Positions 28,083 through 55,248 of a stretch of 64,000 nt of DNA are shown here, one piece after another. This stretch comes from Celeribacter baekdonensis. Its GTDB lineage: Bacteria; Pseudomonadota; Alphaproteobacteria; Rhodobacterales; Rhodobacteraceae. Both the position numbers and the translations under genes were made by a program. The notes below the pieces were generated by a model that saw only the letters and a list, made by a program, of their open reading frames with translations, was not told where the DNA came from and searched no databases. The first letter of the stretch is position 1. Each line of letters opens with the position of its first letter. Location of the stretch: positions 50,507 to 114,506 of the forward strand of contig NZ_CP028477.1 of the NCBI RefSeq assembly GCF_003047105.1. The letters run 5' to 3'.

Positions 28083-28235
28083 TAGGAATTCGCCCACAGG
28101 GAGGTTGTAGAGGACGAATTCTACACGGAAATTTGGGTCAGCCAAAAATCTCATAATTATATCTATGTAAAAATTTTCCAGAGATAGAACAACTGGGGCT
28201 TATCTTGTGGTATGCTGACTCGCATCTCGAAACCA
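28083..28235. other. AT-rich junction between plasmid backbone and catabolic island
   Basis: About 150 bases, markedly AT-richer than the flanks, without a gene. Its right part is read into by the truncated FadJ-like gene, whose family-specific sequence ends near 28230. I saw no clear transposon terminal repeat or target duplication, but the position fits an insertion or rearrangement breakpoint. Confidence 0.45.
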
Positions 28236-30149
28236 CATTGGCCCACCTTTCCACCGCGGAAATCCATAGCCGTGGATTTCAACAAGGTCGATATCGGCGG
28301 GATTCTGCGCGATACCCTCGTCTAAGATCATCTGTCCCTCTGCGGCCATTGCCCCGATCAGCCTGTCAGCGATTTCCTTATGCGTCGGGCTATACGCGCT
28401 GGTGATCCGGTACTTCAGCAATTTGGACACTGTTGAAGATGGCTTCGGGCCGCGACTTCCTTCGACGTAGTCGTACCATCCGCCCATGGTCTTCTGCCCC
28501 TTGCGCCCCGCGCCGACGAGGATGTCACTCAGAGTCTCTGGCACGTCTTGGCCGGCAGCCCTCGCTCCCTCGCGCTGTAAGAAAGCGATGTCGAGGCCAC
28601 CCAGATCTTGGGCCTCGAATGGTCCCATCTTCAAACCAAAAGCGCGCATTGCTTGGTCGATCTCGGAAATCGGCACGCCGTTTTCAACGAGCGCCTCGGC
28701 TTCGGAACGATAGCGTTTGAGGATGCGGTTTCCGATGAAGCCTTCGCAAATCCCCGCCTGCACTGGAATCTTGTTTAGCCGCCCGGCCAGTGCAAATGCC
28801 GTAGCCAGGACATTTTTCGCCGTATCCTGTGTCGGTACAATTTCGAGCAGCCGCATCAGATGGGCGGGGCTGAAAAAGTGCAGTCCGATGAACCGCTCAG
28901 GGTTGGGAAGGCCTTGGGCTATCTCGCGTGGGTCGAGATAGGAGGTATTGGTTGCCAGCACTGCATTCGGCGCGCACACTTCACCCAGCTGAGCGAACAC
29001 CGCGCGCTTGACGTTGATTTCTTCGAACACGGCCTCGATTATCAGATCGCACCCGGCAAGCTGCGCATACTCCGTGGATCCGGTTACCCCGTCCATCTTT
29101 AGGGTGCGGCTCTCTTCGCTGAGTTTTCCCCGTCTCACGGCCGCGGCAAACACATTGTCGATGTTGGCAAGGCCGCGGGCCATGGCGGCATGGTCACGCT
29201 CGATAAGCATGATACGCATTCCGGCATTGCGACAGGCCGCCGCAATGCCTGCGCCCATGGTTCCCCCACCGATCACACCGACCGTTTCAAACGGGCGCGG
29301 TTCTACGCCCTTTAGCGTGACCGGGCGCGGTGCCGCACGTTCGGCGAAGAAAACATGGCGCAAAGCGGCGGCCTCGTCTGAAGTGCGAAGATCGAGAAAC
29401 GTCTCACGTTCCTTGGCCATAGCATCAGAGAAGGATGCCTCGGTCGCAAAGCGCAGACAGTCCAGAGCGCGCAATGGTGCCTGATGGCCGGCTTTGGCCG
29501 CAGATTTGCGGGCCTCGGCCCAGAATTCCTCAGGCATGGGTGATATGAAGCGTTCCGAGACAGGCGGTGGCTGGGAAGCGCTTAGCGACTCACGGGCAAA
29601 AGAGATGGCCGCGTTTTCCAGATCGCTATCCACCACGGCATCAATCAACCCGGCCCCAAGCGCTTTGGCCGCTGACCAAGGTTTGCCGGATGTGACCAAT
29701 TCGACGGCCGCCGAAACACTCACAAGGCGCGGGGTGCGCACGGTGCCCGAGGCGCCCGGAATAACGCCTAAGGTTACCTCAGGCAGTCCCAGCTTGGCGC
29801 CGTCCAATGCGATGCGAAAACGACAGCCCATAGCCACTTCAAGACCGCCGCCCAGAGCCGCACCATGGATTGCGGCCACCCATGGCTTTGTGGCGGCTTC
29901 GATCCGCGCCACCACATCGGGCAGATGCGGCGGAACAGGCGGCGCGCCGAACTCGCGCACGTCAGCGCCAGCGATAAAGGTTCGGCCGGCGCAGATCAGC
30001 ACCACGGCTTTGACTGCAGGATCATCGTCCAATGTTGGGACCATGTCCCACAGCCCTTTGCGGACAGCTTCGGACAGCGCATTTACGGGCGGGCTATCAA
30101 CTGTGACAATGGCGATTTCACCCTCGTGGCGAAGTCTCAGTACGGTCAT
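28200..30149 (-). CDS. fadJ: Bifunctional enoyl-CoA hydratase/3-hydroxyacyl-CoA dehydrogenase, C-terminally truncated
   Basis: The N-terminal half is an enoyl-CoA hydratase (oxyanion-hole segments FIAGADVREF and HGAALGGGLEVA). The C-terminal half is a 3-hydroxyacyl-CoA dehydrogenase with the NAD motif GVIGGGTMGAGIA and HFFSPAHLM. In this cluster it would replace separate PaaF and PaaH. The family-like sequence stops at GYGFPRWKGGPM and is followed by nine unrelated residues. Relatives continue for about 50 more, so the end is lost at the island junction. Whether the enzyme still works is open. It is the last gene of the paaN-liv operon, two bases after livF. Confidence 0.88.
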   Translation of the reverse strand: MTVLRLRHEGEIAIVTVDSPPVNALSEAVRKGLWDMVPTLDDDPAVKAVVLICAGRTFIAGADVREFGAPPVPPHLPDVVARIEAATKPWVAAIHGAALGGGLEVAMGCRFRIALDGAKLGLPEVTLGVIPGASGTVRTPRLVSVSAAVELVTSGKPWSAAKALGAGLIDAVVDSDLENAAISFARESLSASQPPPVSERFISPMPEEFWAEARKSAAKAGHQAPLRALDCLRFATEASFSDAMAKERETFLDLRTSDEAAALRHVFFAERAAPRPVTLKGVEPRPFETVGVIGGGTMGAGIAAACRNAGMRIMLIERDHAAMARGLANIDNVFAAAVRRGKLSEESRTLKMDGVTGSTEYAQLAGCDLIIEAVFEEINVKRAVFAQLGEVCAPNAVLATNTSYLDPREIAQGLPNPERFIGLHFFSPAHLMRLLEIVPTQDTAKNVLATAFALAGRLNKIPVQAGICEGFIGNRILKRYRSEAEALVENGVPISEIDQAMRAFGLKMGPFEAQDLGGLDIAFLQREGARAAGQDVPETLSDILVGAGRKGQKTMGGWYDYVEGSRGPKPSSTVSKLLKYRITSAYSPTHKEIADRLIGAMAAEGQMILDEGIAQNPADIDLVEIHGYGFPRWKGGPMWFRDASQHTTR

Positions 30150-30151
30150 GA

Positions 30152-30852
30152 TTATAGTCCCAAATAAGCTTCGCGGATGCGGGGGTCGGCGATCAGTTCG
30201 GGGCAGGACCGGTTATTGTGACCCGCCCCGTTTCCATCACATAGCCGCGGTCGGCAATCTTCAGCGCGCCGTAGGCGTTTTGTTCCACCAGAAGGATTGT
30301 CACGGCCCGCTCCTTGAGCAATTTCACCACGTCAAAAATTTGCGCAACCAAAAGTGGCGCCAAACCCATCGAGGGCTCATCCAACAACAGGCAATGCGGC
30401 CGACCCATCAGCGCGCGGGCAATGGCTAGCATTTGTTGTTGCCCACCCGATAGGCCCCCTGCAGCAAGGTTGCGTTTTTCTTTGAGCGCGGGGAACATGG
30501 TGTACGCATCCTCCATGTCCCGCTCCACCCGATCATCGGTGAACAGGAACGCGCCGAGGCGCAGGTTCTCTTCGACCGAGAGATTGGTGAAGATCTGTCG
30601 ACCCTCCGGCGATTGCGCGAGGCCACGGCTCAAGCGTTTATGTGCCGGAACGGAGGCAAAGCTTTCGCCGCGAAAGACAATGTTGCCCTCACTCACCGGC
30701 TGGGTGCCGGAGAGACATTTCAGCAAAGTGGTCTTGCCCGCCCCATTGGCTCCCACGACGGTGACAATCTCGCCGGAGTTCACCTCAAGATCGACGCCGT
30801 GCAGTACTTCGATGCGCCCGTAACGTGAGCGCATGCCCTCAACCGTCAACAT
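30152..30852 (-). CDS. livF: Branched-chain-type ABC transporter ATPase LivF, frameshift near the end
   Basis: ABC ATPase with Walker A GANGAGKT, signature LSGGQQQ and Walker B LLLDEPSMGL. As sequenced the frame stops at 30193 after TITGPAPN. One more C in the four-base run at 30200-30203 restores the standard ending ELIADPRIREAYLGL and a stop at 30152. I chose the ATG at 30852 (MLTVEGM), inside the end of livG. It partners LivG in a five-gene uptake system set within the phenylacetate genes. Confidence 0.9.
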
Positions 30853-31624
30853 GAGCGGCCTCCCCTTCTTCTGTGCCAAGATAAGCGGCGATGACGTCCG
30901 GGTTACGCGAAACGGTCGCCGGATCGCCCTCTGCAATCTTTTCACCATGGTCCAGCACGACGATATGGGTCGAGATGCGCATGACCATTTTCATGTCGTG
31001 TTCAACGAGCAGAATGGCGATCCCGGAGGCGGCCAGTTCCACAATAAGATGGTCAATTTCTTCGGTCTCGACGGCATTGCACCCCGCCGCTGGTTCATCG
31101 AGCAACAGGATTTTGGGGTTCAACGCCAGCGCACGGGCGATTTCGAGCCGCTTAAGTGCGCCGTAAGACAGGTTGACCGCCTCTTGTTCGGCGGCCTTGT
31201 CCAATCGGACCCGTTGCAACAGCTGGCGCGCACCATCGCGGGCTTCAGTTGCGCGCCGTTTGACGGAGGGCAAGGCCAGAAGATCGGCCCAGACCGACCC
31301 GCGTTCTTGGAGGTGATAACCGGCCAGGACATTATCAAGAACGGTCATCTCTTGGAAGATTTGCAAGTTTTGAAACGTGCGCGACAGGCCCATTTCGGCC
31401 AGCTTGTTGGGCTGTGTTCCGGTCACCTCTTGACCGCTCAGGGATACAGATCCCATACTCGGCAAATAAATACCGGAGATCATATTAAACAACGTGGTTT
31501 TTCCTGCTCCGTTCGGGCCGATAACCGAAACGATTTCACCTGGTTTCACCGAAAAACTCACATCGTTGACAGCCTTCAGCCCGCCGAAGCTGATGCCAAG
31601 GCCCTTGACGTTCAAAAGGGTCAT
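30839..31624 (-). CDS. livG: Branched-chain-type ABC transporter ATPase LivG
   Basis: A 261-residue ABC ATPase: Walker A GPNGAGKT, signature LSYGALKRLEIARAL in the LivG style, Walker B LLLDEPAAG, and the C-terminal DHGEKIAEGDP typical of LivG. It overlaps livM by ATGA and livF by a few bases. Transport of phenylacetate or another aromatic acid is inferred from position. Confidence 0.92.
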   Translation of the reverse strand: MTLLNVKGLGISFGGLKAVNDVSFSVKPGEIVSVIGPNGAGKTTLFNMISGIYLPSMGSVSLSGQEVTGTQPNKLAEMGLSRTFQNLQIFQEMTVLDNVLAGYHLQERGSVWADLLALPSVKRRATEARDGARQLLQRVRLDKAAEQEAVNLSYGALKRLEIARALALNPKILLLDEPAAGCNAVETEEIDHLIVELAASGIAILLVEHDMKMVMRISTHIVVLDHGEKIAEGDPATVSRNPDVIAAYLGTEEGEAAHVDG

Positions 31625-32580
31625 TCACCTGTCCCCCGTAGCCGACGTGCAATTGAGGGCAAAAGCCCCTGTGGCAGAAAGATCATGACGACAATCATCA
31701 CCGCACCCAGCACAAGTTGTTCATATTCTGCAAAAACAGTGAGCACCTGCGGCAGCAGCGTCAGGATGACGGCGCCGAGGCTCGCCCCAAGCACAGAGCC
31801 GACACCACCGAGCACTGCCATGGTAACCATTTCGACCGAATGCAGAAAGCCCGCCACGTCTGGGGTGACATATTGATTTTGCAGCGCCAAGAGCGAACCT
31901 GCGACCGAGGCATAAACCGCCGAGATCACAAAGGCGCGCAGTTTCAGTTTGGCCACATCGACGCCCACGGTCGCGGCCGCAACTTCGGATCCATGCAGTG
32001 CACGCATGGCGCGGCCTGTCGGGCTGTCGAACAGGTTGAGCGCGATCCAAGCCCCGATCAACAGGATGATGCCAGAGAACATATACCAGAACTCGCCACC
32101 AGACAGTTTCCATCCCATATCCCGTAGCAGGCTACGCAGACCAAGATCGGCCACGGCCATCCCGTCCGGTCCCCCGGTCAAAGCCCGCTCATTGGTCAGG
32201 ACCATCGACACAAGGATGCCAAAGCCCAGCGTCGCAACGGCCAGATAGTAGCCCTTAAGTCGCAGGATCGGTTTGCCGATCAACGCGGCCATGACTGCGG
32301 AGAGCATCGCGCCCAACATGACAGCTAGGCCGGGATGCAGGCCGAGATGTTCGGGGGTAAGCGCACAGGCATAGGCCCCTATCCCGGCAAACCCAGCATG
32401 GCCAAGGCTGATTTGCCCCGCATAGCCGATGAGAACGACGAGTCCGATCACCGCCAGCGCATTGACGAAAATCAGCGCGCCGACCCGGTAGTAATAGCCC
32501 GAGGGAAAGAAGGCGGGCAGCACAGCAATTAGAACCGCCAAAAGCCCAAGTTGAATCCATTTGTTTCGGGAGGTCATCAT
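31621..32580 (-). CDS. livM: Branched-chain-type ABC transporter permease LivM
   Basis: A 319-residue polytopic permease with the LivM-like GYAGQISLGHAGFAGIGAY segment near residues 53-71 and GPDGM later. Overlaps livH and livG by four bases each, so the transporter is translated as a coupled unit. Confidence 0.92.
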   Translation of the reverse strand: MMTSRNKWIQLGLLAVLIAVLPAFFPSGYYYRVGALIFVNALAVIGLVVLIGYAGQISLGHAGFAGIGAYACALTPEHLGLHPGLAVMLGAMLSAVMAALIGKPILRLKGYYLAVATLGFGILVSMVLTNERALTGGPDGMAVADLGLRSLLRDMGWKLSGGEFWYMFSGIILLIGAWIALNLFDSPTGRAMRALHGSEVAAATVGVDVAKLKLRAFVISAVYASVAGSLLALQNQYVTPDVAGFLHSVEMVTMAVLGGVGSVLGASLGAVILTLLPQVLTVFAEYEQLVLGAVMIVVMIFLPQGLLPSIARRLRGTGE

Positions 32581-33449
32581 ACACGCTCCGTCGTTTTTTT
32601 ACCGAAAATGCCTTGCGGCATGACGAAGAGCACCCCGAGGATAACGATAAAGGCCATCGCGTCCTTGTATTGCGAACTCAGATATCCGGCGGTCAGAGCC
32701 TCAAACAGACCCAAAAGCAACCCGCCCAGAAGCGCGCCTTTGGGGTTGCCCATCCCGCCCAGCATGGCGGCGGCAAAGCCTTTGAGGGCGAGCGCAACGC
32801 CCACATCATAGCTCACCAGCGTGATCGGTGTGACCAGCACACCTGCGAGCGCCCCAATGGCGGCAGATAGCCCGAAGGACAGGGTCATCACCCAGCCGGT
32901 GTTGATCCCGACAAGCTGGGCGGCGAGCCGATTGTTGGCCGTGGCCAGCACCGCTTTGCCGGTGAGCGTATGGGTGAAAAACAGCCATAGGCCAACAAAG
33001 ACCGCAATGGCCCCGCCGATCACCCACAGGCTTTGCGGTAGGATTGTTGCACCAAAAATGGCAATCGGGTCATCGCCTGAAAAGCTTGGAAAGCGGTGCA
33101 ATTGTTTGTCAAAGACCAGCTGAGCGGCCCCGCGGATCAGGATTGAGGCTCCGATGGTGATGATGATCAATGACACCACGGGCGCGCCGCGTGCGGGTTC
33201 GATTGCCAGCTTGTTCAGCGCCACACCAATCGCGGCAGTGACAAGAACCGCGATCACGGCGGCCAACGGCAGGGGCAAACCCGCCTCAAAGGCGAAGACG
33301 GTGATCATCCCGCCCAGCATGACAAATTCGCCTTGGGCGAAATTGACCACGTCGGAGGCATTATAGATGATTGTGAATCCCAGCGCGACAAGTGCATAAA
33401 CAGCACCCACGGTCAGGCCGGAGAATATGAATTGCAGCAGGGCGTCCAT
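32577..33449 (-). CDS. livH: Branched-chain-type ABC transporter permease LivH
   Basis: A 290-residue permease beginning with the typical SGLTVGAVYALVALGFTIIY stretch, then VNFAQGEFVMLG and the C-terminal GGMGNPKGALLGG loop. Follows livK after a 68-base gap. Confidence 0.92.
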   Translation of the reverse strand: MDALLQFIFSGLTVGAVYALVALGFTIIYNASDVVNFAQGEFVMLGGMITVFAFEAGLPLPLAAVIAVLVTAAIGVALNKLAIEPARGAPVVSLIIITIGASILIRGAAQLVFDKQLHRFPSFSGDDPIAIFGATILPQSLWVIGGAIAVFVGLWLFFTHTLTGKAVLATANNRLAAQLVGINTGWVMTLSFGLSAAIGALAGVLVTPITLVSYDVGVALALKGFAAAMLGGMGNPKGALLGGLLLGLFEALTAGYLSSQYKDAMAFIVILGVLFVMPQGIFGKKTTERV

Positions 33450-33517
33450 TGGGGCTCCCGAAATAATGTGGCGTTATGAGGAGTGCGGCCGGAGTGGGCC
33501 CCGGCCGCGAGGATGGA

Positions 33518-34663
33518 TCAATCAGCAGAGGTCCAGCGACCGTCCTTGATCTCAAGCATCCGGAAAGCGCTGAGATCGAGGCCAAGATGATCCTCGGGAG
33601 AGAAAGTATAAATGCCGGTGGTGCCAACGAGGCCGGAGGTTGCCTCAAGCGCATCGCGGATATCCGATGGGTCATCACTTCCCGCGCGTGCCATCGCGTC
33701 GGTCATCAACGCAAAGGCGTCATGCGCATAACCGCCAAAGGCCGAGACATCCTGATCGTATTTCGCTTTGTAGGACGAAATATAGGAGGTGACGACCGCG
33801 TATTGAGGGTCATTTTCGGCCAAGAGATCCGCGATCAGAAGTGCGGTGCCCGGCAAACGTACGCCTTCTGCGGCCTCAGGCCCGGCCAATTCAATGAACG
33901 CATTCGATGCAACGCCGTGGCTTCCATAAAGCGGGATGTCAAAGCCCAGTTGTGCAACGTTGCGGGTGACGATGGCGGGCCCTTGCCCAAAGCCTGGGTT
34001 GAGAACAGCCTGCACCCCTTCGGTATTGCGGATGCGGGTCAATTGCGGCGTCACGTCGGCGTCCTGCGGGCCATAGGTCTCGTCGGCGAGAACAGTGATG
34101 CCATAGGTGCCCGCAACATCCTTACACTGCGCCTGCATGGAGGCCCCGAAACCGTCGGTGCCCGAAATCATGCCGATGTTGGTGATGCCCTGCGCCGTCA
34201 TGTCCGCAAATATCTTTTCACAAGCCATGCGGTCGGTGTGCGGTGTCTTGAACACGTTGACCCGCACCGGATCAATGATCGAAATTGCACCGGCGAGCGA
34301 GATAAAGGGGATGCCCTCGTCATCGGCCACCGACAGGATCGACATGGTGGTGCCGGTGGTCGAACCGCCGATAATGGCCACGACCTCGTCATCCTCGACC
34401 AAACGGGTCGCAAAAGTGCGCGCCTTGTTTGGGTCGCCACCGTCATCATAAAGCGTCAACTCAATTTCTTCGCCGTTGATGCCGCCGTTTGCGTTCAGTT
34501 TTTCGACCAGCATCTCAAGCGTTTTCGCCTGGGGGTCGCCCAGAAATGCCGCAGGGCCGGTCGCGGACAGGCTGGCGCCGAGGCGAATTTCGGCCTGTGA
34601 TGCTGTCGCACCCAGTGCGATGAGCGTGGCCAATGCCGTTGTGTGTATGGTTTTGGCTTTCAT
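33518..34663 (-). CDS. livK: Periplasmic substrate-binding protein LivK type
   Basis: Signal peptide at about 1-23 (ATASQAE), then a Leu/Ile/Val-binding-protein fold: IRLGASLSATGPAAFLGDPQ, LYDDGGDPNKA, GGSTTGTTMS. The ATG at 34663 follows a strong GGGAGGAGA. It defines the ligand of the transporter. The presence inside a paa cluster suggests phenylacetate or a related acid instead of amino acids; this is inference. Confidence 0.9.
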   Translation of the reverse strand: MKAKTIHTTALATLIALGATASQAEIRLGASLSATGPAAFLGDPQAKTLEMLVEKLNANGGINGEEIELTLYDDGGDPNKARTFATRLVEDDEVVAIIGGSTTGTTMSILSVADDEGIPFISLAGAISIIDPVRVNVFKTPHTDRMACEKIFADMTAQGITNIGMISGTDGFGASMQAQCKDVAGTYGITVLADETYGPQDADVTPQLTRIRNTEGVQAVLNPGFGQGPAIVTRNVAQLGFDIPLYGSHGVASNAFIELAGPEAAEGVRLPGTALLIADLLAENDPQYAVVTSYISSYKAKYDQDVSAFGGYAHDAFALMTDAMARAGSDDPSDIRDALEATSGLVGTTGIYTFSPEDHLGLDLSAFRMLEIKDGRWTSAD

Positions 34664-34700
34664 GGTCTCTCCTCCCATTAAACTTTTTTGAAAGCTTGGA

Positions 34701-36350
34701 TTAGGCTGCTTTAGGCCTTCGGATCATGACGCGCCGGAAACGCGGCGCGACAAAGGCGGCATCGGTCAGGCTGGCATTGCCAGCCGGGTTCGCGCCGGTG
34801 ACGTGAAAGTCTGAAAATGCCGCCGATTGGTTGACGTAAATGTTGCCAGTGAGATTCACCGAAAGGTTCACGCCCGCCTTGGCAAAGGCTTTCGCGGCCG
34901 CATCAATCAGCGCGTCGTCCTGAGCATAGAGGGCAGCGGTGATCGCCCCTTTGCGTTTGGCCACATCCGCCGCGCGGGAAATCGCTTCCGCAGCATCGGC
35001 ACAGGGGATGATAAAGGACACAGGTCCGAAACATTCCTCGTCTTGCGGACCCTGTATGCCATCAACCACAATCATCAGTGGCGTTGCGCTCTGGCCCTGC
35101 CCGGTCTCACCGCTCTCACGGATTACCTGGCCCGCCGCGCGCGCCTGGCCTATGCGCTCAAACGTGGCAGAGTTGATGATCGTGCCACAGACACCTGCCG
35201 CCCGGTCCGGGTCATCAAGCAGGGCGTCGATGGCCGAGGCAATACCGGCCACAACGTCGTCAAATCTTTTAGGCTCTTCGTCGGTCCCAATCCCACCCTC
35301 AGGAATGTAGATATTCTGCGGCGAGGTGCACATTTGACCGGAGTAAAGCGACAGGGAAAAAGCGAGGTTCGCGCACATCCCTTTGAAATCATCTGTTCCG
35401 GTGATGGTGACCGAATTCACTCCAGTTTCTTCGGTAAATACCTGTGCGGGTCCGGCATTGGCGCGGATCCAATCGGCAAAGCCCGAGGAGCCCGTGTAGT
35501 CGATGATTTTCACATCCGGGTGGCTCACGAGGGTTTTGGTGATTTCCGCTCCGGGCGCATCTGAGGCTAGAAGCACGGCATCTTGGGGCAATCCCGCTTC
35601 AGCAAATACCTCACGCAAAACACGGACGGTCAAGGCCAGCGGCAGAATGGCGCGGGGGTGCGGTTTGATGATCACGGGGTTTCCGGTGGCAAGGCTGGCG
35701 AAAATGCCCGGATAGCTGTTCCATGTGGGAAAGGTGTTGCAGCCAATGGTCAAAGAGACGCCACGCGGCATCAGATGCCACTGTTTTTCGATCACGATGG
35801 GGGCATGTTTGCCCTGTGGCTTTGTCCATGTGGCTTGGGTCGCGCTGCGGGTCATCTCACTCCAAGCCATGGCCAAGGCTTCAAGTCCACGATCTTGGGC
35901 GTGGGGTCCACCTGCCTGAAACGCCATGGCAAAGGCCTGTCCGGTTGTGTGCATGGTCGCGTGACCAAGCAGGAAACTCATTTTGTTGAGGCGGACCAAT
36001 GCCTCAAGCAAAGCCCCCACGCGCACTTCAGGCCCAGCCTCGGCAAATGCCTCGGTCACGGCCTGTGACGCCATGACGAATGCGGCGGCATCTGTGGTGG
36101 GATAGGACATCGCCATATCCTTCCCCCAAGGGGACATCTCTGCCCCAACGCGGGCCGTCTCAGGATGCCCGGGTATTTCAAAGGCCTGTCCTATCAGGGC
36201 CTCAAAGGCGGCGTCGGCTTCTGCTCTCGCGGAGTTGCCATAGATTTTACCGCTGGGAATTTCGGGAAAAGGCGTCCAGAATTCACGCGTCTCCAACGCC
36301 CTCAGGGCGTCCTCAAGCAATCCGCTGTGGCGGTCGAACATGTTTTGCAT
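34701..36350 (-). CDS. paaN: PaaN, aldehyde dehydrogenase-like phenylacetate degradation protein
   Basis: A 549-residue aldehyde-dehydrogenase superfamily member of the PaaN type: GNTFP-like glycines (TIGCNTFPTWNSYPG), IDYTGSSGFADW, the FTEETGVNS glutamate region and the cysteine in SLYSGQMCTSPQNI. PaaN is widespread in paa clusters that also have PaaZ and probably handles an aldehyde intermediate or a related aldehyde. The ATG at 36350 follows GGGAGGA. It starts a minus-strand operon (paaN, livKHMGF, fadJ) divergent from paaG. Confidence 0.9.
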   Translation of the reverse strand: MQNMFDRHSGLLEDALRALETREFWTPFPEIPSGKIYGNSARAEADAAFEALIGQAFEIPGHPETARVGAEMSPWGKDMAMSYPTTDAAAFVMASQAVTEAFAEAGPEVRVGALLEALVRLNKMSFLLGHATMHTTGQAFAMAFQAGGPHAQDRGLEALAMAWSEMTRSATQATWTKPQGKHAPIVIEKQWHLMPRGVSLTIGCNTFPTWNSYPGIFASLATGNPVIIKPHPRAILPLALTVRVLREVFAEAGLPQDAVLLASDAPGAEITKTLVSHPDVKIIDYTGSSGFADWIRANAGPAQVFTEETGVNSVTITGTDDFKGMCANLAFSLSLYSGQMCTSPQNIYIPEGGIGTDEEPKRFDDVVAGIASAIDALLDDPDRAAGVCGTIINSATFERIGQARAAGQVIRESGETGQGQSATPLMIVVDGIQGPQDEECFGPVSFIIPCADAAEAISRAADVAKRKGAITAALYAQDDALIDAAAKAFAKAGVNLSVNLTGNIYVNQSAAFSDFHVTGANPAGNASLTDAAFVAPRFRRVMIRRPKAA

Positions 36351-36378
36351 TGTTCCTCCCAAAACTTGAATCACATTA

Positions 36379-36395
36379 TTGACCGACCGGACGGT
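36379..36395. promoter_or_regulatory. Candidate PaaR site in the paaN-paaG divergent promoter
   Basis: TTGACCGACCGGACGGT is nearly palindromic (ACCG...CGGT) and shares TTGA(C/T)CGACC with the sites at 48285 and 50210. It lies in the 97-base gap between two divergent operons of the pathway, where a TetR-type PaaR repressor responding to phenylacetyl-CoA would bind. Confidence 0.6.
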
Positions 36396-36447
36396 TTATG
36401 CAACAACAAATCTCATTCGCTCACTGGAGGGGGCTGGGAGGAACCGA

Positions 36448-42414: not shown

Positions 42415-42437
42415 TGCCTTGTCCTTCCAGTCTGTCT

Positions 42438-44268: not shown

Positions 44269-44340
44269 ATCAGACCTCCTCCTGTCCGAACAAATCGTGA
44301 AATGATGAACAGGGCGATTTAAGTCGCCCCGACGTCGGCC

Positions 44341-44862: not shown

Positions 44863-44867
44863 TCAGA

Positions 44868-45994: not shown

Positions 45995-46020
45995 GTCGTG
46001 TCCTCCTCACTCCACTGTGT

Positions 46021-47040: not shown

Positions 47041-48246
47041 TCAAATACGTTCGATAATCATGGCGATACCCTGCCCGACGCCCACACACATGGTGCAAAG
47101 CGCATAGCGCCCACCCGTGCGGTGGAGTTGTCGGGTCGCCGTCAGAACCAGACGCGCGCCTGACATACCCAGCGGGTGACCTATCGCAATGGCCCCACCA
47201 TTTGCGTTTACATGGGCGGCGTCATCGGACAGGCCAAGTTCGCGCAGCACGGCAAGCCCCTGTGCGGCAAAGGCCTCATTCAATTCAATCACGTCCATCT
47301 GTTCAAGGCTCATTCCCGCACGCGCCAGAACCCGGTGTGTTGCGGGCACCGGTCCCACCCCCATGATGCGCGGCGCAACACCTGCCGCCGCCATGGCGAC
47401 AACGCGCGCCTTAGGCGTCAGACCATTGGCCTTAGCCGCAGCTTCTGAGGCAACGATCACACCCGCAGCGCCGTCATTCACGCCGCTGGCATTGCCCGCT
47501 GTCACGCTCAGTTCCGGGCCGTTCACGCCACGCAATCTCGCAAGGCTCTCAGCCGTCGTACCCGGGCGCGGATGTTCATCGGTGTCTACAATCAGCGGAT
47601 CGCCCTTGCGTTGCGGGATGCGGACTGGGACTATTTCCTCGGCAAACACACCAGCCGCCTGAGCCTTGGCCCAACGGGCCTGACTGCGCGCAGCAAACGC
47701 ATCCTGATCGGCGCGGCTTATGCCGTACTCCTCGGCCACATTGTCAGCGGTTTCCGGCATTGAATGCGTGCCAAAAACTGTGTCCATCTTGGGGTTTTTG
47801 AACCGCCAGCCGATGGTCGTATCGTAAATCTCGGCATTGCGCGAAAACGCCGATGTGGCCTTGGCGACCACAAAGGGTGCCCGGCTCATGCTTTCAACGC
47901 CTCCCGCCAGCAAAATGTCTCCATCGCCAGCGCGGATGGTCCGGGCGGCAAGCCCGATGGCATCCATCCCCGACCCACACAAACGATTGACGGTGGTGCC
48001 CGGCACTTCGATCGGGACACCGGCCAAAAGTGCCGCCATGCGCGCCACGTTGCGGTTGTCTTCGCCGGCTTGGTTTGCACAGCCCAAGATCACGTCATCA
48101 ATCTGTGCCCAATCCACGTCGGGATTGCGGTCGATCAACGCGCGCAATGGGATTGCGGCAAGATCATCCGCCCGCACCCCTGACAGCGCTCCGCCATATC
48201 GGCCGACCGGAGTCCGCACCGCATCACAGATGAAAGCTTCTGGCAT
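47041..48246 (-). CDS. paaJ: 3-oxoadipyl-CoA/3-oxo-5,6-dehydrosuberyl-CoA thiolase (PaaJ/PcaF)
   Basis: A thiolase of 401 residues with the active-site cysteine in NRLCGSGMDAI, HPLGMSGAR and the final CVGVGQG cysteine. It releases acetyl-CoA and finally succinyl-CoA. The ATG at 48246 follows GGAGGAGA. It heads the minus-strand paa operon (paaJ, paaABCDE, the paralogue, paaZ, paaY), driven by the promoter next to the palindrome at 48285. Confidence 0.93.
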   Translation of the reverse strand: MPEAFICDAVRTPVGRYGGALSGVRADDLAAIPLRALIDRNPDVDWAQIDDVILGCANQAGEDNRNVARMAALLAGVPIEVPGTTVNRLCGSGMDAIGLAARTIRAGDGDILLAGGVESMSRAPFVVAKATSAFSRNAEIYDTTIGWRFKNPKMDTVFGTHSMPETADNVAEEYGISRADQDAFAARSQARWAKAQAAGVFAEEIVPVRIPQRKGDPLIVDTDEHPRPGTTAESLARLRGVNGPELSVTAGNASGVNDGAAGVIVASEAAAKANGLTPKARVVAMAAAGVAPRIMGVGPVPATHRVLARAGMSLEQMDVIELNEAFAAQGLAVLRELGLSDDAAHVNANGGAIAIGHPLGMSGARLVLTATRQLHRTGGRYALCTMCVGVGQGIAMIIERI

Positions 48247-48284
48247 ATATATCTCCTCCGCCACGATTCGGTCCACCCCTCAAA

Positions 48285-48394: not shown

Positions 48395-49228
48395 TCATGC
48401 AAGCGACGCCCGTAACCGGGCAAGTCTGGTCAACGTGGCCTTGGTATCGCGTGGCAGAAATCCGCTCTGATTCTGGAACTGCGCGGCAATATGCCTGTCG
48501 GCTGCCGGAGAAAGCGCGAGATACAATCGCGTGAAAAGATCCTGGGCCGCATCGGCAGGCCATTCATCCGGGCAAGCATGCAGTGGCAGTTGCGGATCCG
48601 CCAACGCGGCACGCCGATAGTCATCGACAAGCCTTAGCCGCAATGTCAATGCCGTACTCCCACTGGCCGTCGCTTCATCAAGCCGCTCCATCAGATGAGC
48701 GTAGCGATCAATGACACGCTTGTAAGCGGTGGCGACATCGCACAGGGGCCAGTTCTGCGCAGCCAATGCAGGTATGTGTCCGGACACGGGATGCGCTTCA
48801 AAGATCACGCCATCAATGGCGCGCAAGTCGGTCCTTGCTGGAGCCAGAGCAACACCCGAGGCTAGACGCACCCATGGGAATGGCGCTTCGCCGCAAGCAT
48901 CGGGCTCACGAAGCGCGACGAGCCAGCTTTCGGGTGTCGGGGGTGAATCGAAAAGAATGCGAGCGGCATCGCGAAATTCGGCTTGGGCAGCAGTCGAGAG
49001 GCGGTAAAAACTTTTGCGTCCCAAGCGCGCACCCTCCAGCCGTCCCGAACTGACGAGCCGCGACACGGCGGTGCGCACTAAGCTTTCGCTGATACCGTGT
49101 TCAGCACAACACTCAATGAGCGCGCCCATCCATAGCGTTCCGCCGCGAGGTTCAACCACGTCGCCGTATATCGTCACAATAAAATCGGGCGCGCGGGGGG
49201 GCGATACGGTGAGAAGAGGGTCGGTCAT
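48395..49228 (-). CDS. paaX: PaaX-family phenylacetyl-CoA-responsive repressor
   Basis: A 277-residue PaaX-like regulator: winged-helix start (SLVRTAVSRLVSSGRLEGARLGRKSFYRLS), a central domain and the family C-terminal domain. PaaX binds paa promoters and releases them on phenylacetyl-CoA. With PaaR this gives the island two repressors likely sensing the same compound, which is unusual. It lies 53 bases after the LysR gene on the same strand and may share its transcript. Confidence 0.9.
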   Translation of the reverse strand: MTDPLLTVSPPRAPDFIVTIYGDVVEPRGGTLWMGALIECCAEHGISESLVRTAVSRLVSSGRLEGARLGRKSFYRLSTAAQAEFRDAARILFDSPPTPESWLVALREPDACGEAPFPWVRLASGVALAPARTDLRAIDGVIFEAHPVSGHIPALAAQNWPLCDVATAYKRVIDRYAHLMERLDEATASGSTALTLRLRLVDDYRRAALADPQLPLHACPDEWPADAAQDLFTRLYLALSPAADRHIAAQFQNQSGFLPRDTKATLTRLARLRASLA

Positions 49229-49281: not shown

Positions 49282-50160
49282 TTACATACTGCCGACACGC
49301 GAGATCAGAAAATCTATGAGCGCACGGAGTCGACGCGGGAAAATTTTGGCCTCAGGAAAGACTATTCGGATCGGAATTGGTGCCAGCACATAGTCGGGTA
49401 AAACTTGTTCGAGTGCTGGCTTAGAATGAATAATCCAATCCGGTAAAATTGCCAGACCGACGTTTTGCCATGCAGCGCCTTCAGCAAAATCGACATCGTT
49501 CCCCTGCAACCTTGAGCAAATGGTGATCGACTGGCGTCCGTCCTCCGAGTCGAAGGTAAGCACATCAGATGGGTAAGCCCGTGGCACGAGGAGCGCATGC
49601 TGCTCTAGCTCGAGCGGAATCGACGGGCGCCCGTGATTTCTCAGATAGTCCGGCGCGCCCACCACAATCCAGTGATGATTGCTGAGCAAGCGCTGTCGGT
49701 ACGGACCTTCCAGTGCTGGGGTGCCAATGATGGCGAGGTCAAGCTTTGCATCAAGCAGGTCTGGGGGGCGGCGGTGTAGCGTGACATCGACAGTCAGCCC
49801 GGGATAAAGCTCCAGGAACTCGATCAAGAGCGGTAGCAGCACTCGCCGACCGTACGAATGCGGCGCAGAAATTCGCATGGTCCCGGAGATACGCGGGAGC
49901 TCTCCGTGGGCGACGCGCATCACCTCGGCGCGGGCGTCCAACATGTGTCGTACATGAGGTATCAGTTCCTCCGCTTCTCTCGTCGGGTACATTCGCCGGG
50001 TGGAACGAATGAAAAGCTGAATTCCCAGAGAGGCTTCGAGCGCGGCGATCTGCTTGCTGACCGTAGCCTGCGGAACGTTCAATGCTCGTGAGGTCTGGGA
50101 AAAATTCCTGCGATCCATGAGTTCGGCGAAGATTTCGTAGGCCTGAAGCCGATCGCTCAT
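49282..50160 (-). CDS. LysR-type regulator divergent from styA
   Basis: A 292-residue LysR protein with the N-terminal HTH (NFSQTSRALNVPQATVSKQIAALE) and a CrgA/AaeR-like effector domain. Its start is 100 bases from the styA start on the opposite strand, the typical arrangement for a LysR activator of its neighbour. It would replace the StyS/StyR two-component system of Pseudomonas styrene operons. Effector unknown. Confidence 0.88.
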   Translation of the reverse strand: MSDRLQAYEIFAELMDRRNFSQTSRALNVPQATVSKQIAALEASLGIQLFIRSTRRMYPTREAEELIPHVRHMLDARAEVMRVAHGELPRISGTMRISAPHSYGRRVLLPLLIEFLELYPGLTVDVTLHRRPPDLLDAKLDLAIIGTPALEGPYRQRLLSNHHWIVVGAPDYLRNHGRPSIPLELEQHALLVPRAYPSDVLTFDSEDGRQSITICSRLQGNDVDFAEGAAWQNVGLAILPDWIIHSKPALEQVLPDYVLAPIPIRIVFPEAKIFPRRLRALIDFLISRVGSM

Positions 50161-50226: not shown

Positions 50227-50259
50227 CTATTTTTACACAGGAGATCAAGGGAGGAAGCT

Positions 50260-51510
50260 ATGACAAAGAAAATTGCCATCATTGGTGCGGGCACTGCGGG
50301 GCTGCAACTGGGGCTCTACCTGCTGCAAAAAGGGATCACACCACGTCTGTACACAGACCGTGCTCCCGAGGACTACGCAGGTTCGCGATTGATGAACACG
50401 GTCGCCCACCACCATGTTACGGTCGAGCGTGAGGATATACTCGGATGCAATCACTGGCCATCGAAGGAATACGGCTATTTCGGTCACTACTACTACATCG
50501 GCACGCCGGACCCGATCCATATCTTTGGCGACTTGGCGCAACCCAGCCGCGCCGTCGACTACCGCATCTATCAGCCGGCGCTCTTGCAAGACTATATCGA
50601 CCGCGGCGGCGAGGTGGTTTACGGTCCTGTTGAGCATGACCAGATCGAATGCATTTCTGACGAGAGCGACCTTACCGTAATTTGTACCGGCAAAGGCGCG
50701 ATCGGACAGATGTTTGGCCGCGATGACAGCTACTCTCCTTACGAACGCCCGCAACGAATGCTCTGCGTCGGTTTGTTCAAAGGCATCGCTGAGACCGAAA
50801 CGCGCGCTGTGACGATGTATTTTTCTCCTGGCGCCGGCGAACTTATCGAGATCCCGACGTGGTCGTTCAACGGGTTCTGCAAGGCTCTCGTCTTTGAAAA
50901 CCACATTGGCGGAGATCTTGAGATCCTCGCCCGCACCAAATATGATGATGACCCGCGTGCGTTCCTTGATCTGATGCTCGAGAAGATCAAAGCACACTAC
51001 CCGACTCTTTATGCGCGCATTGATCGCGATGAGTTCGATCTTGCCAATTCGCCAATGGATATTTTGCAGGGCGGTGTCACCCCCACTGTTCGCAAGAGCC
51101 ACACGCGGCTTGGCAATGGAAAGTTGGCAATTGCCCTGGGTGACGTCCATGCTGTCGTTGATCCGGTGCTGGGGCAAGGGGCCAATATGGCATCCTATGC
51201 TGCGGTCATTCTTGGTGAGGAGATCGTTGAAAACGACGTCTTCGACCAGCGCTTCCTAGAGAAGTTCGATGCACGCCGTGGCGACCGCGTCGTATGCGCA
51301 ACCCGCTGGACAAACTACATGCTCGACAATTTGGCGTCTCTCGATCCGAGTCTGTTGGAGTTCATCGGCGGCATGGCGCAAAACCGCGCACTGGCAGATC
51401 AGTTCACCGAAGGCTTCAACCATCCTGAGCGTCAGTGGGATATCTTCTCCAGCCCTGAGCGTGTGAGGTCCACCATAGCAAGCGCACAGCAGGCGATGGC
51501 GGCCGAGTGA
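50260..51510 (+). CDS. styA: StyA, FADH2-dependent styrene monooxygenase, oxygenase component
   Basis: A single-component-flavin-type epoxidase (416 residues) with the FAD-binding GAGTAG (9-14) and [13 protein letters not shown] near residue 307. It oxidises styrene to (S)-styrene oxide using reduced FAD from StyB. Indole monooxygenases are similar, but the StyC isomerase in the same operon supports styrene. GGGAGGAAG precedes the start. First gene of the sty operon. Confidence 0.92.
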
Positions 51511-51576: not shown

Positions 51577-52218
51577 ATGAAAACCAAACTAATCTGCGCG
51601 GCAGCACTGCTTGCTGCAACCGCCACACATGTGCAGGCTCAGGATGCTGGGCCCTGGTCGCTACGGCTCGGGTTGTCGCATATCGGGATGAATGAAAGCG
51701 CCGACATTTCACTGGGAGGTGCTACGGTTCCGGGCGCGAGCTTCACCACTGACGATGATTTGACGCCGACAATTGGCATCGGATATCGCTTTTCGGAGCG
51801 TTTTTCGGCAGAGTTAACTGTTGGTATCCCACCCACCGCCACCTTGAACGGTTCAGGGCCACTCTCTGGCCTCGAATTGGGCAAGGTCACTTATGGGCCG
51901 GCCACATTGACCGGACTCTATCATTTCCCTGAATTCGGCAATGGCCTTGATGCCTATGTCGGCGGCGGCGTGAATTATACGATTATTTTTGACACGAGTG
52001 ATGGCGCGATTGATGGCTTCGACGTGGACAATGCGTTTGCGCCGATCATTCAGGCTGGAATTGAGGGACCCTTGGGCAACAAGACGGGATGGTTCCTCGA
52101 TGCGAAGTACATCGCACTTGAGACCAAGGCGCGTGGTACCGTTGGTGGGGTGCCAGCAGAAGCAGACATTACGCTTGATCCCCTGATCGTAACTGCGGGC
52201 GTCGTCGTACACTTTTAA
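51577..52218 (+). CDS. OmpW/AlkL-type outer-membrane protein
   Basis: Signal peptide at about 1-21 (ending VQAQ), then an OmpW-family beta-barrel of 213 residues (GPWSLRLGLSHIGMNE, TPTIGIGYRFSERFSAEL, ending with VVHF aromatic). AlkL and OmpW relatives aid entry of hydrophobic substrates, so styrene uptake is likely. It is placed between styA and styB, an unusual position. Confidence 0.85.
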   Translation: MKTKLICAAALLAATATHVQAQDAGPWSLRLGLSHIGMNESADISLGGATVPGASFTTDDDLTPTIGIGYRFSERFSAELTVGIPPTATLNGSGPLSGLELGKVTYGPATLTGLYHFPEFGNGLDAYVGGGVNYTIIFDTSDGAIDGFDVDNAFAPIIQAGIEGPLGNKTGWFLDAKYIALETKARGTVGGVPAEADITLDPLIVTAGVVVHF

Positions 52219-52278
52219 ATTTAAAAGCATTGACGCTCATCATTTCTCACAGGGCAAGCAAGAAAAAAGGAGAAGATC

Positions 52279-52782
52279 ATGGTTGATGATCAAACATTTC
52301 GCGCGGCTCTCGCTGAATTGGCTGCGGGGGTAAACATCGTAACCACTCGCCTCGGAGAGGAGCGCCGAGGCATCACAGCGACCGCTGTCTGTTCAGTATG
52401 CGCAGAGCCCGCAACAATTCTGGCCTGCACTAACCAAAACACCGGGACCTTCAAGATGATCCGCGACGCGGGTCATTTCGCAGTCAATATTCTCGATTAT
52501 GAACACCAGAACACTGCTGAAACTTTCGCCGGGCGGAGTGGGCTTCAAGGCGATGATCGGTTTGAGTCGTCGGCTTGGGCAAATGGAGATGTCCTGGGGA
52601 TGCCAGTTCTGAATGGCGCAACCGCCTTGGAATGCGAAATTTCAGAGATCGTCAATTCCGGGACGCATGCAGTAATATTCGGTCGCGTAGTTGGCGCCAA
52701 GGTTCAGGGTATCACGCCCTTGGTTTACCATGGCGGTAGCTTTCGCGGCCTGACCGACGCCAACAAACGGGTGCCAGCCTGA
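52279..52782 (+). CDS. styB: StyB, flavin reductase component of styrene monooxygenase
   Basis: A 167-residue flavin reductase of the HpaC/StyB fold with GVNIVTTRLGEERRGITATAVCSV and HAVIFGRVVG near the end. It reduces FAD with NADH for StyA. Preceded by AAAAAGGAG. Confidence 0.92.
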   Translation: MVDDQTFRAALAELAAGVNIVTTRLGEERRGITATAVCSVCAEPATILACTNQNTGTFKMIRDAGHFAVNILDYEHQNTAETFAGRSGLQGDDRFESSAWANGDVLGMPVLNGATALECEISEIVNSGTHAVIFGRVVGAKVQGITPLVYHGGSFRGLTDANKRVPA

Positions 52783-52838
52783 GATTTCCGGGTTCGTAGA
52801 AAAAATGTCACGGACCATCAACACTAAGGGAGGATACT

Positions 52839-53387
52839 ATGACTGACGAACACGTCGAACCGTGGAAGCTTACACTCCGCGACATTATGGCCGGGAACGG
52901 TGTACTGATGATTTTTGCTGCACTGGTGGGTGGGCTTGGCTACTGGATGTTCTTGCTGGGCGGCTTCGAGATTGTCCCGGGCTTTTTCGTCTCCTTTCAA
53001 CTGCCCGGCACCGAACATGGATGGCGCGGAACCCATACCGGGCCAGTCTTGAACGGTCTTATGACAATCGCAGTCGCATTTGTTATACCTCATCTGAATT
53101 TCTCGGAAAAATGGGGTAAGATTTGGGGCTGGATCGTCATGCTGGACGGTTGGTCGAACGTTGTTTTCTATTGGGGATCCAACTTTTCGCCGAACCGGGC
53201 CCTAGCATTTGGCGACACGCCAATCGGCCCGTCCAACATTTTCAGCTTCATCGGACTCGCTCCGGCGTATGTGTTCGGCGTGCTGAACATGATCGCTCTG
53301 GTGGCGATTGGGCGTCAGGCAATAATCGTCGCAAAATCGCGCCGTGACAGAGGTGACCTCGCTGTAGGGACCCGCGGCGTCGTTTGA
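52839..53387 (+). CDS. styC: StyC, styrene oxide isomerase
   Basis: A 182-residue integral membrane isomerase converting styrene oxide to phenylacetaldehyde. Family motifs: GNGVLMIF, GGFEIVPGF, HTGPVLNG and NFSPNRALAFG, with four hydrophobic helices. From memory of the Pseudomonas enzyme, His58 binds haem and Asn64, Asp95 and Tyr103 act in catalysis; with an offset of eight these are His66, Asn72, Asp103 and Tyr111, all conserved here. It carries an N-terminal extension of several residues. Confidence 0.92.
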   Translation: MTDEHVEPWKLTLRDIMAGNGVLMIFAALVGGLGYWMFLLGGFEIVPGFFVSFQLPGTEHGWRGTHTGPVLNGLMTIAVAFVIPHLNFSEKWGKIWGWIVMLDGWSNVVFYWGSNFSPNRALAFGDTPIGPSNIFSFIGLAPAYVFGVLNMIALVAIGRQAIIVAKSRRDRGDLAVGTRGVV

Positions 53388-53420
53388 CGGCAATGCCTCA
53401 TCTCATAAAAGGAGGGATCT

Positions 53421-53741
53421 ATGTATTGTCTTTGCGTTGAATATCCCACCCCGGTCGACCCGGACTACTTTAGGAACTATTACGATACGAGGCATCTCCC
53501 ACTTGCGCAGCGACTCCCAGGTCTGATTTCCTACGAAGTGGCCTATCCTTCGCCGCTTAGGGAAGGTGCGCACTCGCCCTTCTGTGTCTTTCGCGCCTAT
53601 TTCGCGTCGCCTGACGACATGCAGAAGGCCCTGTTTTCGGAAGAGGGGTCGGAAGTTGCCAGCGATGTGCCGAACTACTCGCCGAATGGGTGTCATATGT
53701 TTCACCATCCGGTCAATCTCACAAAGCAGGCTGCGGCATGA
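53421..53741 (+). CDS. EthD-domain small protein in the sty operon
   Basis: A 106-residue ferredoxin-fold (dimeric alpha/beta barrel) protein of the EthD type, with YFRNYYDTRHLPLAQRLPGL and a C-terminal segment with PNGCHMFH. EthD proteins often accompany ether- or hydrocarbon-degrading operons; some relatives are enzymes. It lies between styC and styD, where Pseudomonas operons have nothing. Role unknown. Confidence 0.75.
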   Translation: MYCLCVEYPTPVDPDYFRNYYDTRHLPLAQRLPGLISYEVAYPSPLREGAHSPFCVFRAYFASPDDMQKALFSEEGSEVASDVPNYSPNGCHMFHHPVNLTKQAAA

Positions 53742-53845
53742 CGCGGGGTTCACAGCACAAATCCGCGTTGCATGGGAAAGTTGGCAGCGAGCCTGTTGGC
53801 CAATTCCTATCCCGCGTTTTGCACTTCTTCAGAGGAAATTCCACC

Positions 53846-55248
53846 ATGTCCACGACATTAAGCCCCGAACGTCCCATGTCCACAAATGGGGCGACCTTTC
53901 CTGTCCTCAACCCTCGTCGGGTGAGGTAGCAGGATATGCCCCGAACGCCTCGCTCGCCGATCTCGATATTGCAGTGGCCGCTGCACAAGCCGCATTTAAA
54001 ACTTGGTCCAAACTGTCTTCTGACGAGCTTCAAGCATATTGTGAAAAGGTCGCGACCACGATTGGCGAACATGCCGAGGAGCTGGCCGTTCTGATCACCA
54101 AGGAACAGGGCAAGCCTCTGAACGGACTTGGCTCGCGCTGGGAACTCGGTGGCGCGCAGGCTTGGGCCGGCTATTCCGCAAGCCTGTCGCTGCCAGTCAA
54201 GATCCTTCAAGACAATAACGAGGGCCATGTCGAACTGCACCGTAAACCCCTTGGCGTGGTCGGCTCCATCACCCCGTGGAACTTCCCCGTGATGATCGCG
54301 ATTTGGCACATCATGCCGGCGCTGCGCACCGGCAATACCGTGGTGGTCAAGCCCTCACCCTTAACGCCACTTTCAACCATACGTCTTGGGGAGATTATGA
54401 GTGAGGTCCTGCCCTCAGGCGTGGTCAATGTCGTGACCGGCGACGACAAGGCGCTCAACCTCGGAGCCGCCATGTCGGCCCACACGGGCATCCGCAAGAT
54501 CGTTTTCACCGGCTCTTGCGCGACGGGTCAGAAGGTCATGCAATCGGCCGCCGAAACCATGAAGCGTCTAACGCTGGAGATGGGCGGCAATGACGCCGGT
54601 ATCGTCCTTCCCGATGCTGATCCCAAGGCGATTGCAGAGGGGCTGTTTTGGGGCGCGTTCATCAACAACGGCCAGACTTGCGCGGCCATGAAGCGCCTGT
54701 ATGTACACGACTCGATCTATGACGAGGTCTGCGAAAACCTGGTCGCCTTTGCCAAGAACATTCCGGTCGGCGACGGGATGAACGAGGACAGCGTCCTTGG
54801 GCCGATTCAGAACGCCATGCAATTCGACAAGGTGCGGCGGCTTGTCGATGCGGGCGAGTCTGAGGGCCGGGTGCTTCTCGGCGGCGTGCCAGGCGAGGGT
54901 CTGTTCTTTCCGCCCACCATCATCGCCGACCTGTCGCAAGACAACCTTCTGGTCACCGAGGAGCAGTTTGGCCCGGTGCTTCCTGTGATCCGCTACACGG
55001 ATGTGGAAAAGGCCATCGCGGCGGCGAATGACTCAAACAATGGTCTGGGAGGCTCGATCTGGACCTCCGACATCGAGAAAGGCCGCGAACTTGCCAAGCG
55101 GATGGAATGCGGATCGGTCTGGATCAACAAGCACGGTGCCATCCAGCCAAACGCGCCTTTCGGTGGGGTTAAGCAATCTGGCCTTGGGGTCGAGTTTGGC
55201 GAAGAGGGTCTCGCTGAGTATACTGATATTCAGGTGATCTTCTCTTAA
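53846..55248 (+). CDS. styD: StyD, phenylacetaldehyde dehydrogenase, apparent single-base frameshift
   Basis: An NAD-dependent aldehyde dehydrogenase: PWNFPVMI, FTGSCATGQ, the glutamate in LEMGGND and the catalytic cysteine in NNGQTCAAMK. About 467 residues. The first 22 codons (MSTTLSPERPMSTNG... FPVLNP) are in another frame; adding one C to the three-base run at 53911-53913 joins them as VLNPSSGEVAGYAP. The ATG at 53846 follows AGAGGAAA. The longer open frame starting at 53566 inside the EthD gene is a shadow. It makes phenylacetate, the substrate of PaaK. Confidence 0.9.

Follow-up and report, generated by a model that had tools for sequence, protein, structure and literature searches.

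Gene content of the sty/paa block

The last 64,000 bases (C6:50507-114506) of the 114,506-base contig C6 of Celeribacter baekdonensis LH4, whose assembly comprises six contigs and 4,436,768 bases, were analyzed; this stretch is called the window, and positions refer to it unless another contig coordinate is given. Between 28200 and 55248 it carries genes for styrene degradation (sty) and for the phenylacetate route (paa) in one block (Table 1). Thirty open reading frames (ORFs) were scanned with NCBIfam models, whose scores are given as bits against the curated cut-off. These scans bore out an initial annotation of the same DNA, which had placed the upper and lower pathways together here and had given the block its own porin (OmpW-family) and transporter (LIV-type ABC). 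PaaABCDE, PaaG, PaaZ, PaaJ and PaaK all exceeded their curated cut-offs. Judged from its sequence, the region very probably constitutes a complete styrene-to-acetyl-CoA/succinyl-CoA gene set, carried as a single 27-kb cargo by a RepABC plasmid, most likely circular and of ~100 kb, that also has VirB/D4 genes. What the sequence shows directly is which genes are present and in what order, the residues in the active sites of StyA and StyC, the type of replicon and how sharply the cargo is bounded.

StyA is 60% identical to the enzyme encoded by the Pseudomonas plasmid pSTY and carries all six residues of the styrene monooxygenase fingerprint (N46, V48, H50, Y73, H76 and S96), a styrene-type motif described in an excerpt of PMC13101512. 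StyC retains the five residues H58, N64, D95, N99 and Y103, each shown to be a haem ligand or important for catalysis, according to an excerpt of PMC11374702. The initial annotation had named the operon styABCD. For StyA and StyC this holds, as both are orthologous to the classical enzymes; for the other two it does not, since the LH4 flavin reductase is 24% identical to StyB of pSTY and the aldehyde dehydrogenase 38% identical to a Rhodococcus StyD. Their counterparts in Phaeobacter inhibens P88 are closer, at 69% for the reductase and 80% for the dehydrogenase.

The regulator beside styA is LysR-type and not StyS/StyR. Such a regulator swap is not new as such, because styS and styR are absent and a LysR regulator is suspected in Sphingopyxis, as stated in an excerpt of the review PMC5874493. 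Annotation and protein matches place LysR, styA, ompW, reductase, styC, ethD and aldehyde dehydrogenase in this order also in Marinibacterium anthonyi and P88, and the genes from styA to the dehydrogenase stand in the same order in Donghicola and Tropicibacter (by protein match). The EthD gene was found in all five Roseobacteraceae-type sty loci compared. In Tropicibacter naphthalenivorans, styC (L006:12584-12886) matches in part only and looks damaged. The sty operon of LH4 is best described as a Roseobacter variant.

StyA is 60–63% identical to proteins from Pseudomonas, R. opacus, R. oxybenzonivorans and Gordonia, and identity within the Roseobacteraceae-type proteins is 81–88%. A recent transfer of the sty genes from Pseudomonas or Rhodococcus was dropped on these values. 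We did not lean on a StyA tree because its support was uneven, with values of 0.41–0.97 for most inner branches among the styrene-type proteins. How widely Roseobacter-type sty operons occur is known only from a plasmid collection, one contig scan and 295 genomes of the family. Three of these 295, LH4 included, encode StyC, and one of the three matches is weak. StyA matches occurred in 8 of the 19 other genomes of the genus, at 29–31% identity, and none of the 19 gave a match above 31%. The contig scan gave three loci, one of them at 28% identity. In LH4 itself, a StyA-like group E monooxygenase gene at C1:266074-267308 carries indole-type residues at five of the fingerprint's six positions and a frame break, and a flavin reductase gene adjoins it.

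We asked whether the sty genes might serve another substrate, such as indole, another alkene or a plant volatile, so that the block would be mainly a phenylacetate pathway. StyB and StyD are not of the classical types, the paa block is found elsewhere without sty, and LH4 came from marine sediment on a thiosulfate medium with no styrene selection recorded (PMC5958252), all of which would fit such a role. We nevertheless consider it unlikely, given the styrene-type fingerprint of StyA and its identity to the pSTY enzyme, the residues of StyC that act in styrene oxide isomerization (PMC11374702, in the excerpted text) and the presence on C1 of a separate homologue with indole-type residues, albeit frame-broken as sequenced. 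The intact fingerprint in particular makes action on indole only, an outcome the initial annotation had allowed for, improbable.

The lower pathway has some features of its own. Separate PaaF and PaaH were not among the block ORFs, the part of the genome scanned for them; one FadJ-like fusion is present instead and is taken as supplying both functions. A sixth protein, PaaA/PaaC-like, lies between PaaE and PaaZ, and occupies the same place in plasmid pLA6_004 of M. anthonyi and in a plasmid of Alloyangia pacifica. All three matches to the PaaA/PaaC family in the LH4 genome fall within the block, and PaaA was found in 1 of the 19 other genomes of the genus (2 of 20 counting LH4). From FadJ to PaaX the paa block is colinear with the Alloyangia plasmid (74.8% over 20 kb), where no sty genes lie beside it. 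At the block end where LH4 has the LysR-to-styD cassette, the Alloyangia plasmid has an indolepyruvate ferredoxin oxidoreductase, which we take to be perhaps another route into phenylacetyl-CoA. We read this as replacement of the upper pathway while the lower one stayed in place.

In the proposed pathway, styrene would enter the cell, possibly with the help of OmpW, and StyA, supplied with FADH2 by the HpaC-like reductase, would convert it to styrene oxide. StyC would isomerize this on its haem to phenylacetaldehyde, which the aldehyde dehydrogenase would oxidize to phenylacetate, and PaaK would form the CoA thioester. PaaABCDE would then epoxidize the ring, PaaG and PaaZ would isomerize and open it, and the thiolase and the FadJ-like fusion would complete beta-oxidation. 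Control of the two halves of the pathway would lie with LysR and PaaX. As to origin, the sty cassette (LysR to styD) was probably added to an older Roseobacteraceae paa block at its paaX end; the combined block occupies a bay of a plasmid backbone whose relatives carry other catabolic sets there.

Table 1. Features of the window with position, strand and supporting match
Feature	Position	Strand	Evidence
MobA/VirD2-type relaxase	292..2241	+	PF03432 47 bits, cut-off 24.6
Type IV coupling protein VirD4	2108..4171	+	PF02534 294 bits; 97% identical to pP88_d protein
Bay A, between virD4 and virB11	4172..15316		other contents in relatives
Weak WYL match in bay A	5214-6005		Pfam
SbcC/SMC-like ATPase in bay A	7019-10291		Pfam
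GajB/GajA (Gabija) pair in bay A	11014-12804, 12804-14939		PADLOC GajB 820 bits, GajA 1022 bits
VirB11, VirB10, VirB9, VirB8, VirB6, VirB5, transglycosylase, VirB4, VirB3, VirB2, VirB1, hypothetical	15317..26689	-	Pfam, tblastn with pP88_d proteins
Left edge of cargo bay, degenerate dif-like site	28146..28173	+	14/22 to E. coli dif arms
FadJ-like enoyl-CoA hydratase/3-hydroxyacyl-CoA dehydrogenase fusion	28200..30149	-	NF008363 427 bits, below cut-off 869
LIV-type ABC transporter, five genes (two ATPases, two permeases, substrate-binding protein)	30193..34678	-	
PaaN	34701..36374	-	TIGR02288 708 bits, cut-off 579
PaaG	36379..37254	+	TIGR02280 408 bits, cut-off 345
PaaI thioesterase	37258..37707	+	TIGR02286 153 bits, cut-off 119
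PaaK phenylacetate-CoA ligase	37738..39045	+	TIGR02155 716.5 bits, cut-off 646
TetR-type regulator	39136..39735	+	Pfam
PaaY-like hexapeptide protein	39719..40348	-	TIGR02287 275 bits, below cut-off 320
PaaZ	40345..42486	-	TIGR02278 975 bits, cut-off 563
PaaA/PaaC-like sixth protein	42438..43202	-	PF05138 81 bits
PaaE, PaaD, PaaC, PaaB, PaaA epoxidase	43192..47019	-	five TIGRFAM models over cut-off (bits/cut-off: PaaE 430/421, PaaD 190.5/108, PaaC 285/133, PaaB 140/85, PaaA 520/280)
PaaJ/PcaF (3-oxoadipyl-CoA) thiolase	47041..48276	-	TIGR02430 710 bits, cut-off 597
PaaX-like regulator	48395..49228	-	TIGR02277 190.5 bits, below cut-off 265
LysR regulator, divergent to styA	49282..50160	-	Pfam
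StyA styrene monooxygenase	50260..51510	+	NF045732 707 bits, cut-off 550
OmpW-family porin	51577..52218	+	52 bits, cut-off 287 for OmpW proper
Flavin reductase in StyB role, HpaC/RutF-like	52279..52782	+	StyB model 69 bits, cut-off 200
StyC styrene-oxide isomerase	52839..53387	+	NF045734 219 bits, cut-off 150
EthD-family protein	53421..53741	+	PF07110 31 bits
Aldehyde dehydrogenase in StyD role	53908..55248	+	StyD models 379/850 and 335/800 bits
Large ParB-like backbone protein, 774 aa	55349..57673	+	PF02195; real start probably downstream of first start codon
Right edge of cargo bay, homology to related backbones resumes	55399..55418		

Replicon, terminal overlap and transfer genes

As the initial annotation had proposed, the block is extrachromosomal, on a replicon that belongs to a Roseobacteraceae genome, and VirB/D4 genes adjoin it. 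Outside the window, at C6:21389-25144, we found a RepABC operon with a ParA-type ATPase, RepB (38 bits) and RepC (201 bits), so that the replicon type is RepABC. This operon and the terminal redundancy of the contig speak against a chromosomal location. The 774-aa ParB-like protein beside the block, which had been put forward as parB, is a backbone marker and not the partition gene of the RepABC operon. Per 2 kb, G+C is 54–61% in the cargo (28001-54000), lower than the 64–66% of the type IV secretion system (T4SS) backbone (16001-26000).

That sty and paa genes are plasmid-borne in LH4 was already known and is not new here, since the announcement of this strain (Flood et al. 2018, PMC5958252) had already placed paaABCDEGHJKXYZ, styA and styC on a plasmid, one that appears to be identical with this contig's replicon. 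Of the sty genes that account names only styA and styC; it reports closed replicons with a plasmid of 114,606 bp, and does not discuss the transfer genes or a cargo bay.

Comparison of the contig ends showed that C6:1-14334 matches C6:100200-114506 (about 49694-64000 of the window) over 14,361 aligned bases at 99.4% identity. The sty genes fall inside this overlap and hence occur twice in the deposited contig. The 96 differing alignment columns comprise 77 gaps and 19 substitutions; missing bases cluster in the first 3 kb for the start copy and in the final 6 kb for the end copy, and the 5 kb between the two gap-rich zones hold three differences. Because the differences pile up at both outer contig ends, we take the contig for an untrimmed long-read circle. 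A circular plasmid of ~100.2 kb is thus most likely, with the second sty copy produced by the assembly; the deposited closed plasmid would then be ~14 kb too long, with the sty genes counted twice. Two 14.3-kb copies in the contig would also fit a genuine tandem duplication, or a linear plasmid that ends in long terminal repeats. We hold either to be most improbable, because each copy is shorter at its own end, where the gaps concentrate, and because the plasmid contig C3 of the same genome has a similar end repeat, a 301-base stretch found near both ends at C3:7600-7900 and C3:122420-122720.

The claim that the plasmid is self-transmissible was weakened. Genes for the relaxase, the coupling protein, VirB1-6 and VirB8-11 are all present; in the VirD4 ORF, homology to the protein of pP88_d, a plasmid of P88, begins at 2258. 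As sequenced, virB4 and virB5 each show one frame change relative to the P88 proteins by tblastn, both far from the contig ends, and sequencing error is possible. Because single-base errors are shown elsewhere in the assembly, the two genes can be called neither broken nor intact, and self-transmissibility is unproven. Conjugation has been documented for roseobacter T4SS plasmids, according to an excerpt of PMC5513947. If VirB4 and VirB5 were inactive, the plasmid would carry the pathway and move with help only or not at all. The two mid-contig frame breaks make this a serious possibility; we do not favor it, as the other VirB/D4 genes compared are present and 84–97% identical to the pP88_d proteins, and single-base indels remain in the assembly, at least near the contig ends, so that the breaks may be errors.

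Some points weigh against this overall reading of the region. In the start copy of the overlap styA and styB are in pieces and styD is one 457-aa frame; the window copy has a styD whose 5' end is disturbed. The assembly is therefore imperfect here. The frames of virB4 and virB5 are interrupted as sequenced, StyB and StyD are assigned by position and not by orthology, and the chromosomal search for paa genes covered the epoxidase family (PaaA/PaaC) only. We regard the LH4 styrene plasmid as real, well-formed and probably working. It would show how a marine bacterium can acquire a whole hydrocarbon diet at once.

An exchangeable cargo bay and its edges

What appears to be new is that the block occupies a bay with sharp limits, which has the secretion genes on one side and the parB-like gene on the other. 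Plasmids of many Rhodobacterales have this T4SS and parB-like gene in common, at ~83–91% DNA identity in nearly all of the matches listed. At the left edge, 15 of 23 T4SS-side flanks end at 28156-28175 and the other eight end earlier, among the 60 matches listed of 85; the remaining 37 were set aside (16 matches to the FadJ gene, and 21 with a 275-base piece of unannotated DNA ending at 28124). At the right edge, all 32 parB-side flanks start at 55399-55418, among the 60 matches listed of 87, with 28 matches to the aldehyde dehydrogenase gene set aside. No direct repeats were found within either edge stretch, and the two edges share no exact match of more than 8 bases, the same as in shuffles. 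A transposon marked by direct repeats was dropped on these grounds. Tni-type transposition genes lie away from the block, at C6:27062-30595.

We next examined the bay in 17 other plasmids by record annotation; in ten, at most the first 9 kb were inspected. Sixteen of the 17 showed other catabolic or transport operons there, the sets differing among plasmids from nine further genera. Seven plasmids (from Sulfitobacter, Ruegeria, Pseudosulfitobacter, Mameliella and Phaeobacter) carry a set headed by pcaF, in most cases together with electron-transfer flavoprotein (ETF) and dehydrogenase genes; in S. indolifex an insertion sequence splits it. Two plasmids carry a dehydrogenase/TRAP set, with xanthine dehydrogenase seen in one, and two carry sets for gamma-aminobutyrate, folate and ETF. 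The rest include acyl-CoA/LIV genes in P. albus, an alkane monooxygenase in Phaeobacter G2 unnamed1, Rieske oxygenase/TRAP and protocatechuate genes in P88 (from the VirB1 end to the parB-like gene), a muconate-tautomerase/TRAP set behind Tni-type transposition genes in S. alexandrii, and an ammonia-lyase/ETF set in Pseudohalocynthiibacter (viewed from the left edge). Ruegeria pSD25 is the exception, with a homoserine-lactone synthase, an aminotransferase and an exporter. In G2 unnamed1 and S. alexandrii a long distance separates the left edge from the parB-like gene, so that the bay is not compact there. Identical protein accessions for the same bay cargo were seen in four genera, Sulfitobacter, Ruegeria, Pseudosulfitobacter and Mameliella (L053, L054, L056 and L072), which suggests recent spread. 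This apparently exchangeable catabolic bay of a widespread plasmid family is the more interesting by-product of the analysis, and its differing operons make 'plug-in metabolism' in the Roseobacter group directly testable.

A degenerate dif-like site, scored against the arms of E. coli dif, lies at the left edge. It is in register with better sites of related plasmids, at the point where most related backbones cease to match. In 9 of the 17 relatives the break shows an arrangement of XerC arm, 6 bases and XerD arm; in P. albus and pSD25 the dif-like site lies ~140 bases past the point where homology ends. Within 440 bases around the left edge, the highest-scoring site reached 15–20 of 22 in 11 of 18 plasmids; among 1500 windows of that length taken at random from these loci, 31 (2.1%) reached at least 15. 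This excess is suggestive rather than strong, because the plasmids are related; four types of central region occur among the 11.

Several observations argue against Xer-mediated exchange. The LH4 site rests on register and not on score, as 11 sites of at least 14/22, itself included, occur across the cargo stretch. None of the eight right edges examined reaches 15/22, so that XerC/XerD-type sites were found at the left edge only and not, as in an Xer pdif module, at both ends. Six of the 17 relatives (P24, SMR1-6, G2 unnamed1, S. alexandrii, P88 and Pseudohalocynthiibacter) have no edge site of at least 15, and the dif-like core with at most two mismatches is not enriched genome-wide in LH4 (21 against 37 in the reversed control). 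With the weak LH4 site, the right edges without a site and no genome-wide enrichment, an Xer step in cargo exchange is offered as a hypothesis only, and the site may simply serve dimer resolution.

The interval between virD4 and virB11, bay A, holds the Gabija pair and the SbcC-like ATPase in LH4. Judged by the annotation of the relatives, S. faviae has SIR2, TIR-domain and SbcCD genes in this interval, Roseovarius THAF9 and Pseudosulfitobacter DSM 107133 have CBASS-type genes, and P88 has the sty/paa block itself. It is thus defence-like in four of the five plasmids inspected, LH4 included, and catabolic in one. We tentatively propose a family of Rhodobacterales transfer plasmids in which the virD4-virB11 bay mostly holds anti-phage defence and the other bay holds exchangeable catabolic cassettes opening at a dif-like site, with XerC/XerD and homologous recombination in the parB flank possibly swapping diets. 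As a whole this proposal is quite possible, if somewhat doubtful; the two-bay architecture is its better supported half. No paper on such a two-bay design was found by title or abstract start in the literature searched, coverage of which left out most subscription journals.

Comparison with known systems

The initial annotation had presented the plasmid-borne combination as notable for the spread of aromatic degradation. Its novelty is lessened by the 2018 announcement of this strain and by the precedents pSTY (Pseudomonas sp. VLB120) and pTTS12 (P. putida S12), in which, as in LH4, sty adjoins paa on large conjugative-type plasmids. Transfer of pTTS12 between Pseudomonas strains gave growth on styrene, according to an excerpt of PMC9537497. 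Unlike LH4, pSTY has StyS/StyR and a classical StyB annotated; the carriers are Tn3-family elements, as described in the same excerpt of PMC9537497.

Two further comparable systems are roseobacterial. Plasmid pP88_d (NZ_CP010729) shares the backbone, at 88% DNA identity over the T4SS, and a sty and paa set. Its block is shorter, annotated without PaaN, the ABC transporter, PaaI, PaaY and PaaX, is 71–73% identical to that of LH4 at the DNA level, and lies in the other bay, between virD4 and virB11. The gap between backbone and cargo identity and the use of different bays argue for separate insertions; a recent shared origin of the two plasmids together with their cargo was dropped on the same identities. 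Plasmid pLA6_004 of M. anthonyi La 6 (CP031589), conjugative by MOB-suite, has the same order from the ABC transporter to styD, with a FadJ-like gene nearby. In the part compared its T4SS is different (67%, and only over 2 kb), and its styD end, not its FadJ end, faces the VirB genes.

Sphingopyxis fribergensis Kp5.2 resembles LH4 in having sty near phenylacetate genes, a suspected LysR regulator and no StyS/StyR, and differs in that its aldehyde dehydrogenase gene lies upstream of styABC, as far as the excerpt of PMC5874493 describes it. The pdif modules of Acinetobacter plasmids, in the excerpted accounts of them, are like the LH4 bay in that accessory genes are bordered by XerC/XerD-type sites; the LH4 bay differs from them in having a dif-like site at one edge only and in carrying a catabolic cargo.

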